Shown: piece by piece, positions 62,593 to 63,727 of the stretch
Position numbering within the stretch: position 1 is the stretch's first letter
Layout: every line of letters begins with the position of its first letter
Assembly (NCBI RefSeq): GCF_000600975.2
Contig: NZ_KK088653.1
Location: forward strand, 682,501 to 746,500
Direction: 5' to 3'
From: Limimaricola hongkongensis DSM 17492
GTDB taxonomy: Bacteria > Pseudomonadota > Alphaproteobacteria > Rhodobacterales > Rhodobacteraceae
Length of the DNA stretch: 64,000 bases
Notes under the pieces: generated by a model
What the model saw: only the letters and a program-made list of their open reading frames with translations
Told to the model about the DNA's origin: nothing
The model's database searches: none
Program-made: the position numbers and the translations under genes

Positions 62593-62637
62593 AAAAACGA
62601 GAAACGGCGACGCCCAGGGAGGAGGAGGGGCGCCGCC
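62593..62637 (-). terminator. Intrinsic terminator formed by the last hairpin of the array
   Basis: The stem GGCGACGCCC / GGGCGCCGCC (one A-C mismatch on plus, U-G in the RNA) is followed on the minus strand by GTTTCTCGTTTTT. A T-run occurs only on this side of the array, which supports minus-strand transcription from the DUF1127 gene. Confidence 0.75.
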
Positions 62638-62778
62638 GCTGTGTTCCGAACCGCGGATCCTCAGGGAGGAGGAGGAGAACCCGTGGTCGTCTCGGTCGAC
62701 CGGCTTGGCCAGGGAGGAGGAGGGCCCGGCCGGTCCATGCAACGGATGCCTGATTGGGAGGAGAGCATCCGTATTCTG

Positions 62779-62823
62779 TGCGACCGGCAGGGTCAGGGAG
62801 GAGGAGGACCCTGCCGGTCTGAT
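62779..62823 (-). repeat. Identical hairpin segment, copy A
   Basis: These 45 nt are identical to 62956-63000. They include a perfect 13-bp stem (GACCGGCAGGGTC and its complement) with the 12-nt array loop. Confidence 0.9.
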
Positions 62824-62955
62824 GCGCGCCGTTCCAGGGAGGAGGAGGGAACGGCCCGTATTCGAATTCCTGCGAGCGACGGGGCAGGGAGGAGGAGGCC
62901 CCGTCGCTCTGTGGTCCGCGTGCGCTCCAAGGGAGGAGGAGAAGCGCCCGTGGCA

Positions 62956-63000
62956 TGCGACCGGCAGGGTCAGGGAGGAGGAGGACCCTGCCGGTCTGAT
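62956..63000 (-). repeat. Identical hairpin segment, copy B
   Basis: These 45 nt are identical to 62779-62823, 177 nt away. Flanking hairpins also correspond (63003 with 62828; 63059 with 62875), so a block of about four hairpins was probably duplicated. Confidence 0.9.
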
Positions 63001-63184
63001 CTACGCGCGCGCCCCAGGGAGGAGGAGAGGGCGGCCCGTATCTCGGGAAACTATCAAAGCGACGGCATCAGGGAGGAGGAAGATGCCGTCGCCTTGTTGC
63101 GGGCCGCCCAGGGAGGAGGAGGGGCGGGACCGCGGCTCGCGATCGGTTCAGGGAGGAGGAGGAACCGGTCGGGATGCGGGAAAC

Positions 63185-63394
63185 TTACTTGGCTTCGCTG
63201 GCCTCGATCGCGATCCGCTTGATCATCGAGCGGCTGATGCCGAGATCGGCGAGGTCGCGGTCGGTCAGCGCCTGCAGCTCGTTGAAGGTCGTGCGGTAGA
63301 TCTTGCTCTTCGCGACCCGGTCGGCCAGGCTGGCACGAAGGGCGGCGATGCGCTGGCCGAGGCCGGCGCTGCGGGTGTCGGTGGTGTATGCCAT
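63185..63394 (-). CDS. ccaF1: DUF1127 family small RNA-binding protein (CcaF1-like)
   Basis: A 69-residue basic protein. The DUF1127 motif is in RTTFNELQALTDRDLADLG and ISRSMIKRIA, with the conserved L..LsdRdLaDLGisR pattern (about 35-60). In R. sphaeroides the DUF1127 protein CcaF1 (RSP_6037) binds RNA and takes part in maturation of the downstream CcsR sRNAs. ATG 63394 has GAAAGAGG about 8 nt upstream; longer frames are unlikely. Its place directly upstream of the hairpin array reproduces that locus. It is divergent from the Mrp gene. Confidence 0.9.
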   Translation of the reverse strand: MAYTTDTRSAGLGQRIAALRASLADRVAKSKIYRTTFNELQALTDRDLADLGISRSMIKRIAIEASEAK

Positions 63395-63510
63395 GGTGCA
63401 TACCTCTTTCATTCGGGGCCCCAGTCGGGGGGCCGGCTCTGCTGATCTGGTCGATCCCAGACTGCGGGACCGGACGTCGTCGAAGCCGCCGTATTGCGTC
63501 TTCGAGATCC

Positions 63511-63540
63511 AAAATAGGCTTGTGCCGCAGATGCACAATC
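63511..63540 (-). promoter_or_regulatory. Candidate stress (RpoH-type) promoter of the DUF1127-sRNA operon
   Basis: On the minus strand TTGTGC and CTATTT are separated by 15 nt, resembling CTTG / CYATnT elements of RpoH-type promoters. It lies about 120 nt upstream of the DUF1127 start. The match is weak and is offered because the homologous R. sphaeroides operon depends on RpoHI/RpoHII. The rest of 63395-63727 shows only a small palindrome, TGCTGCTATGCAGCA, at 63554-63568. Confidence 0.3.
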
Positions 63541-63727
63541 CCTCGGATCGGCAATGCTGCTATGCAGCAAACGCATGGTAAAAGTTTCATGAAAACACAG
63601 TCTTACCTAGGGTAATCCAAGTTTTCGCGGGCCGCTTGCGCTTTGGGCGACAAAGCGCGACCCTTGCGCGGAATTCGGGCGGGACGTGAAGCGAGGCCCG
63701 AAAAAGAGACCAGGAAACGGACCCCAG

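Follow-up and report, generated by a model that had tools for sequence, protein, structure and literature searches.

A DUF1127 gene followed by thirteen cuckoo-type RNA hairpins in Limimaricola hongkongensis, with a promoter element resembling the LsrB/VtlR box

Organization of the locus

The window analyzed here is a stretch of 64,000 nucleotides from Limimaricola hongkongensis DSM 17492 (contig NZ_KK088653.1). On its minus strand, a DUF1127 open reading frame (ORF) is followed by an array of 13 hairpins, spanning 63174 to 62603, and by a T-rich end. In minus-strand order, the parts are as follows.

63185..63394, minus strand: DUF1127 protein gene, 69 aa, CcaF1-like, predicted RNA-binding (from Pfam PF06568 and the place upstream of cuckoo arrays)
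63181..63190, minus strand: AU-rich, RNWUU-like predicted RNase E site at the stop codon (from an AU-rich/RNWUU scan)
63137..63174, minus strand: hairpin 1
63099..63133, minus strand: hairpin 2
63055..63096, minus strand: hairpin 3
63047..63058, minus strand: AU-rich predicted RNase E site, 3' of hairpin 3
62998..63044, minus strand: hairpin 4
62959..62996, minus strand: hairpin 5, identical to hairpin 9
62916..62953, minus strand: hairpin 6
62874..62909, minus strand: hairpin 7; L. variabilis and L. pyoseonensis have an extra four-hairpin block at the same place
62856..62870, minus strand: AU-rich predicted RNase E site, 3' of hairpin 7
62818..62865, minus strand: hairpin 8
62782..62819, minus strand: hairpin 9, identical to hairpin 5
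62769..62778, minus strand: CAGAATACGG linker, a weaker AU-rich site, after hairpin 9
62742..62772, minus strand: hairpin 10, with a degenerate loop (CTCTCCTCCC)
62696..62737, minus strand: hairpin 11
62650..62687, minus strand: hairpin 12
62603..62640, minus strand: hairpin 13, likely a terminator together with the T-rich tract
62593..62604, minus strand: T-rich tract TTTCTCGTTTTT of the likely intrinsic terminator (from the sequence)

This layout had been proposed in the original prediction, and the Pfam match, the motif map, and the folds agree with it: the 69-aa ORF scores 44.3 bits against PF06568 (cut-off, 23.3). The loop is near invariant, as claimed, with CCTCCTCCC present in 12 of the 13 hairpins; hairpin 10 carries CTCTCCTCCC in a 13-nt loop, while its L. 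variabilis counterpart has an odd, 14-nt loop that keeps CCTCCTCCC. All 13 copies of CTCCTCCC found on both strands of the 64-kb window lie inside a 0.54-kb stretch of the array, a confinement that excludes chance. The gap between gene and array is short, as predicted, although the constrained fold places 10 nt, rather than 14 nt, between the stop codon and the first hairpin. The last hairpin is absent from the output of a simple terminator scan, which admits loops of 3 to 8 nt only. Downstream of the array lies a LysE-type gene (62553-61948), the start of which is also present in both congeners.

Hairpin folds and family assignment

The stems vary in sequence while their arms keep complementarity, so that hairpin formation is maintained. 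When the motif is constrained to stay unpaired, the 13 hairpins have a mean folding energy of -20.9 kcal/mol with their own flanks, versus -10.7 kcal/mol when 5' and 3' flanks are taken from different hairpins and -9.7 kcal/mol with shuffled flanks. The 897 hairpins of DUF1127 arrays behave similarly (-20.1 own, -10.0 cross, and -8.2 shuffled, the cross and shuffled energies being computed on random samples). We used energies because the control that counts pairs between 7-nt arms is weak: in a free register, which biases it, 46% of shuffles reach 6/7 pairs and the separation is poor, and its cross-arm figures are not register matched, so that it does not enter the evidence. Neither does loop constancy among the relatives, whose hairpins were picked by CTCCTCCC itself, making that constancy partly a product of selection. 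When the whole array is folded freely, the identical hairpins 5 and 9 pair long-range with each other.

The locus belongs to the CIN1 loci of cuckoo RNAs (CcsR, alpha-r14): CCUCCUCCC-loop hairpins stand next to one another, their complementary stems are variable, and a short DUF1127 gene adjoins them. The best Rfam matches, both on the minus strand, are to ar14 (RF02344; 54.9 bits, E 6.7e-9, short of the gathering score of 58.8 bits) and to CcsR1 (RF02791; 43.2 bits, E 6.2e-9, short of the gathering score of 65.3 bits). Matches to the two models run along the array, at E values from 6e-9 to 4e-3 and always under the gathering scores, so that the array is filed as cuckoo RNA by its modules and not under either entry. 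The Rfam search proposed in the original prediction thus recovers both models, but below threshold; together with the position of DUF1127 genes upstream of such arrays, these matches support the claimed kinship to the ccaF1-CcsR locus of Rhodobacter sphaeroides. The locus is a large member of an already described RNA family.

Repeat unit and array size

Stem similarity along the array is 0.20, 0.34, 0.20, 0.39, 0.22, and 0.33 at lags of one to six hairpins, respectively, and the best lag is four (p 0.037; 300 permutations, best of lags 1 to 6), a weak signal when this array is taken by itself. Aligned with those of L. variabilis and L. pyoseonensis, the array lacks exactly four hairpins, with the junction inside the homologous hairpin 7. 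Motif counts in this array and the two congeners are 13, 15, and 16, and hairpin counts including decayed loops, read by eye from the linkers, are 13, 17, and 17, that is, 3 + 4k + 2. Tested by itself, neither congener gives a significant lag (L. pyoseonensis, p 0.227 at lag 4; L. variabilis, p 0.563 at its best lag, 3); hairpins with decayed loops go uncounted in this test, which shifts the register. Since both congeners carry a homologous array with four more hairpins each, the array is real and not the assembly artefact that the original prediction had allowed for, even if one block may have collapsed in this draft genome.

Higher-order repeats are widespread in such arrays. Among 65 DUF1127 arrays with at least eight motifs, the best lag is four in 26, two in 25, three in 9, six in 3, five in 1, and one in 1, and unit repeats reach p <=0.05 in 49 of the 65 (at lags 2, 3, 4, or 6). 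Lag three is found in Wenxinia marina, Carideicomes alvinocaridis, and genome G165. Lineages thus differ in unit size. Frequent unit repeats and a difference of one whole unit between congeners might also be seen in a neutral tandem repeat without function; such a reading is nevertheless very improbable, since arms stay complementary while stems differ and since the family conserves both the gene order and the promoter.

The array had also been thought to be the largest of its kind, a claim that does not survive comparison. The pattern of two CTCCTCCC with 20 to 50 nt between them is present in 246 of 295 family genomes, and 7 of the 295 have at least 12 such pairs on the same strand, including the genome under study (12 pairs). 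The other six are G107 (14), G006 (15, one of them on another contig), G018 (13), G050 (15), G165 (25), and G272 (13), so that 6 of the 294 other genomes exceed this one in closely spaced loop pairs in the comparison of hairpin number that had been suggested; the pattern undercounts by missing wide spacings, also counts pairs outside arrays, and does not give hairpin totals for the 295 genomes. Counted as motifs per single array, G165 has 26, Primorskyibacter flagellatus 23, Oceanicola sp. m2 20, and Wenxinia marina 17, and the congeners' arrays are larger than this one as well. The G165 array (locus L023) consists mostly of three-hairpin units of about 140 nt and is the longest among the arrays listed. 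The array of G107, a genome of the same genus, is identical to that on NZ_FNAT01000002.1 of Limimaricola pyoseonensis.

Scanning genome contigs for long arrays gave at least 118 stretches. The 118 listed comprise 51 with at least eight stem-checked hairpins, 6 with four to seven, 26 with two or three, and 35 with fewer than two, the last indicating that the pattern also caught unrelated repeats. Arrays with at least four stem-checked hairpins number 86, in 84 loci, with L128 and L188 contributing two each. Among the matches listed, a DUF1127 ORF lies at most 700 nt upstream of the locus's array for 80 of these 86 arrays, and the stop codon is 18 to 32 nt from the first motif in 70 of the 78 loci having such an ORF. 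The six loci without one are L119, L186, L187 (cut by locus end), L080, L145, and L034. In L034 (genome G128, 8 hairpins), no DUF1127 ORF was seen and the promoter composite described below is kept. L080 and L145, with 12 hairpins each, have a short ORF only, and in them TTGTGCA is kept and the box is weaker. L119 (Streptacidiphilus sp. ASG 303) is a low-complexity repeat with a 61-bp period and 28 copies of CTCCTCCC, apparently unrelated to cuckoo hairpins. Locus L169 lies in a contig labelled as actinobacterial (Enemella evansiae TN21-6, JAFKDC010000010.1) and has a 10-hairpin array, a DUF1127 ORF, and the promoter block, for which reason it is probably a mis-sorted Rhodobacteraceae-like contig. 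The genome under study has three further DUF1127 loci (L190, L191, and L193).

Predicted processing of the transcript

RNWUU is a form of the RNase E consensus. The R. sphaeroides enzyme is described in an excerpt of PMC6238624 as preferring AU-rich sites. In this operon, AU-rich windows and RNWUU matches are confined to four places: the stop codon, the stretches following hairpins 3 and 7, and the terminator. AU-rich linkers repeat at the stem lag 104 times in the 49 arrays whose lag is significant, versus 85.0 (sd 4.6) in 2000 permutations; the figures for all 65 arrays are 123 and 98.7 (sd 5.1). An RNWUU lies between the DUF1127 stop codon and the first hairpin in 41 of 75 loci.

We propose that a single transcript would run from about 63503 to 62593 and that RNase E would cut it after the stop codon, hairpin 3, and hairpin 7, releasing RNAs of three, four, and six hairpins, the last perhaps split further into two plus four. 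In R. sphaeroides, RNase E releases CcsR1-4 from the ccaF1 3' UTR with the involvement of CcaF1, according to the available parts of PMC8625941 and PMC10253847, and the DUF1127 protein may help processing here in the same way. Recombination between homologous hairpins would let arrays grow or shrink by whole units.

The original prediction envisaged instead six or more two-hairpin units plus one, and cutting into as many CcsR-like RNAs, as in R. sphaeroides, is the corresponding alternative. It finds some support in the 25 of 65 arrays whose best lag is two, in the CcsR1 model, which matches four two-hairpin stretches here, and in the second-best rank of lag two in this array (0.34 versus 0.39 at lag four). 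However, this array has no AU-rich site between successive hairpin pairs, its hairpin spacing does not alternate, and the congeners differ from it by four hairpins. The lag-four repeat, the four-hairpin indel, and the AU-rich sites after hairpins 3 and 7 do not bear out the two-hairpin arrangement, and we regard such cutting as quite unlikely.

A conserved promoter block

Upstream of the DUF1127 gene, three elements follow one another.

63552..63566, minus strand: LsrB/VtlR-box-like element TGCATAGCAGCATTG, 15 bp (2 mismatches to the reverse complement of the VtlR motif)
63532..63538, minus strand: TTGTGCA, predicted -35 region containing the TTG of RpoH-type promoters (from ATTGTGCA conservation)
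63511..63516, minus strand: TATTTT, predicted -10 region, with a predicted transcription start near 63503 (from RpoH determinants)

Among 63 upstream regions, ATTGTGCA is found in 52 (0.5 expected), GCAGCATT in 47, and TGCTGCAT in 30. The composite GCATRGCRGCATT-N6-36-TTGTGCA is present in 152 of 295 family genomes, mostly as one copy, and the reversed pattern in none; its length is 33 or 34 nt among the matches listed, so that the spacing between box and TTGTGCA is fixed within 1 nt. By a hand tally, it occurs in 145 of the 246 genomes with hairpin pairs versus 7 of the 49 without them. Of 76 array loci that have a DUF1127 ORF and 450 nt or more of upstream sequence, 43 have the strict composite and 33 are without that form; all 45 composite copies in array loci measure 33 or 34 nt. 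The 15-mer has one exact copy in this genome, at the array, with no other within one mismatch and eight others at two mismatches (reversed control, 3 in all).

The RpoH promoter determinants at -12, -11, and -9 given in a section of PMC3441632 recur downstream of TTGTGCA: A-12, T-11, and T-9, within 1 nt, are found in 60 of the 73 loci that carry TTGTGCA versus 16 of 678 other TTG occurrences. The promoter spacing in the window is one base shorter than the commonest. An RpoH-type core promoter of this kind is consistent with stress induction, and the ccaF1 gene of R. sphaeroides is reported, in the portion of PMC10253847 available, to have an RpoHI/RpoHII promoter.

A candidate LsrB/VtlR-like regulator

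The VtlR motif quoted in an excerpt of PMC12595884 is CAATGCAGCCATGCA, and TGCATAGCAGCATTG differs from its reverse complement at 2 of 15 positions. In 63 family loci, a match to the VtlR 15-mer within two mismatches is present in 42 upstream regions (one mismatch in 17, two in 25) versus 1 of 1260 shuffled sequences. A proposed core, GCAT-N3-TG-N3-T, has one fixed position that differs in the box of this locus. In Sinorhizobium meliloti, LsrB is reported to activate the alpha-r14 RNA NfeR1, to be essential for it, and to bind its promoter from -72 to -57; the LsrB motif given there is TGCA-N6-GCAT (all from the accessible text of PMC10746234), whereas five bases separate TGCA and GCAT in the element described here.

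The genome encodes a LysR-type protein (L261:2356-3261, minus strand) that resembles LsrB. It was chosen for comparison because it looked like LsrB. Its nearest solved relative is PDB 9HH1 (236.6 bits; next, 97.2), which is the Agrobacterium LsrB (PMC11975290, seen in part). Among the genome's 20 LysR-like loci, this protein is the best match to 9HH1 (40% identity overall, 233 bits; next, 132). Over the DNA-binding domain, identity to 9HH1 is 75%, and the other LysR loci reach at most 49% over a comparable length, a 10-residue, 70% match in L242 being set aside. A protein named from L. variabilis shares 91% identity with the candidate. Of the four cysteines that LsrB has in the aligned stretch, none is conserved, and Cys190 is the candidate's only one. 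Its gene adjoins a murI-like gene (named by eye) and not trxB. A trxB-linked LsrB gene was sought as well; there is no such gene beside trxB, and the candidate came from listing the LysR genes.

Co-occurrence of this gene with the array gave no support to the link. In 60 of the 295 genomes, chosen by completeness, the LysR gene is present in 30 of 30 with array and box (73 to 89% identity) and in 29 of 30 where neither the array nor the box pattern was found (48 to 81% identity), so that at least in the latter the protein must have other work. LsrB has been called unique to Rhizobiales in the part of PMC11975290 available; the LysR protein closest to LsrB occurs in 59 of the 60 family genomes examined. 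Above small cuckoo-like clusters on other contigs, mostly no close VtlR 15-mer was found among the matches listed. One such cluster, on a Sulfitobacter contig (L115), has the 15-mer at one mismatch. The co-occurrence result, the described restriction to Rhizobiales, the clusters lacking the 15-mer, the unshared cysteines, and the absent trxB neighbor all count against the link.

The conserved promoter element likely ties the operon to a regulator known from rhizobia, judging from motif and protein comparisons. We propose that the LsrB/VtlR-like regulator would bind the box, located around -64 to -50, and assist an RpoH-type polymerase at the core promoter. The alternative is that another regulator binds the block, or that the block is simply an extended RpoH promoter, with the LsrB-like protein unrelated to it. 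The R. sphaeroides promoter has been reported as RpoHI/RpoHII dependent with no LysR regulator named in the excerpts of PMC10253847 and PMC8307010, the LysR gene is also present in genomes in which no box pattern was found, and further TGC/GCA half-sites surround the box; we therefore give this alternative appreciable weight. We nevertheless think it the less probable account, since the enrichment of the VtlR 15-mer over shuffled sequences, the 75% identical DNA-binding domain, and a box position comparable to the LsrB site of S. meliloti speak against it. A link between LsrB/VtlR and the cuckoo operon of Rhodobacteraceae was not found in the literature searched; the main cuckoo RNA and CcaF1 papers lay outside that literature, and the link may be in print there.

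Possible targets of the loops

The UCCUCCC of the loops is complementary to GGGAGGA. The pattern GGGAGGA-N4-12-ATG occurs at 103 places in the genome versus 11 for the reversed pattern, a count that takes any ATG, gene start or not, includes some places repeatedly, and has one inside the array, in antisense. A 16S-tail-like site, found with a pattern for the 16S tail, reads GGATCACCTCCTTTCG, and the loop accordingly shares CCUCCU with the anti-Shine-Dalgarno sequence. The loops could pair with GGGAGGA in translation starts and cover Shine-Dalgarno sequences. We infer such masking in line with passages of PMC3927594 and PMC10746234, the latter describing the pairing of NfeR1 with the translation start of ntrB mRNA.

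Alternatively, the hairpins might mainly titrate the DUF1127 protein or Hfq, with hairpin number setting how much protein sponge, rather than how much mRNA blocker, is present. CcaF1 binds RNA and its excess is reported to disturb CcsR maturation, CcsR is reported to bind Hfq (both in excerpts of PMC8307010), and gene and array share one likely operon, all of which suit a sponge. Yet the loop is complementary to Shine-Dalgarno-like sites, the related NfeR1 is reported to pair with a translation start (PMC10746234, in part), and the L034 array retains the promoter composite with no DUF1127 ORF found; on balance we hold titration as the main role to be unlikely.

An integrated model and comparison with known systems

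The gene, the hairpins, the kept arm complementarity, the four-hairpin repeat, the AU-rich sites, and the conserved promoter block are all seen in the sequence. Taken as a whole, we consider it probable, at about three chances in four, that these parts form one operon of the cuckoo kind, driven by one stress-type promoter with an LsrB/VtlR-like regulator at the box, with RNase E releasing a few multi-hairpin RNAs whose loops cover Shine-Dalgarno sequences and with arrays changing by recombination.

A broader version is offered more tentatively, as an idea somewhat short of an even chance. Across the Rhodobacteraceae, an LsrB/VtlR-type regulator and RpoH polymerase would switch the DUF1127-cuckoo operon, in an old circuit shared with the rhizobial LsrB-NfeR1 pair; in the higher-order repeats, each unit of two, three, or four hairpins would correspond to one RNase E-released RNA, and unit copy number would tune the dose of anti-Shine-Dalgarno loops. 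What is added here is a testable control circuit, in which a LysR-type box lies at a fixed distance upstream of the core promoter in about half of the family genomes scanned, and a rule by which arrays grow in whole units with predicted RNase E sites at their borders. If true, this would join the literature on R. sphaeroides CcsR/CcaF1 with that on rhizobial LsrB/VtlR-NfeR1, which stand apart in the literature searched, and would make hairpin dosage comparable between Limimaricola species with 13 versus 17 hairpins.

The closest known system is the ccaF1-CcsR1-4 operon of R. sphaeroides, with which the locus shares a small DUF1127 gene, same-strand CCUCCUCCC-loop hairpins, a terminator, and the RpoH-type core promoter (PMC10253847, in part). 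That operon yields four RNAs of two hairpins each, whereas the array described here has 13 hairpins with a repeat unit of four. Members of the cuckoo/alpha-r14 family, such as SmelA075, SmelA099, and NfeR1 of Sinorhizobium, likewise have a variable number of modules, CCUCCUCCC loops, and variable stems; those in the accessible part of PMC3927594, which include RS0680a RNA with two hairpins, have two to four, unlike the single long array behind a DUF1127 gene found here. Finally, the VtlR/LsrB control described in Brucella, Agrobacterium, and Sinorhizobium has in common with the circuit proposed here the DNA-binding domain (75% identical), a similar 15-bp box, and DUF1127 and sRNA targets, but differs from it in the gene neighbor, which is murI-like here instead of trxB, and in the cysteines.
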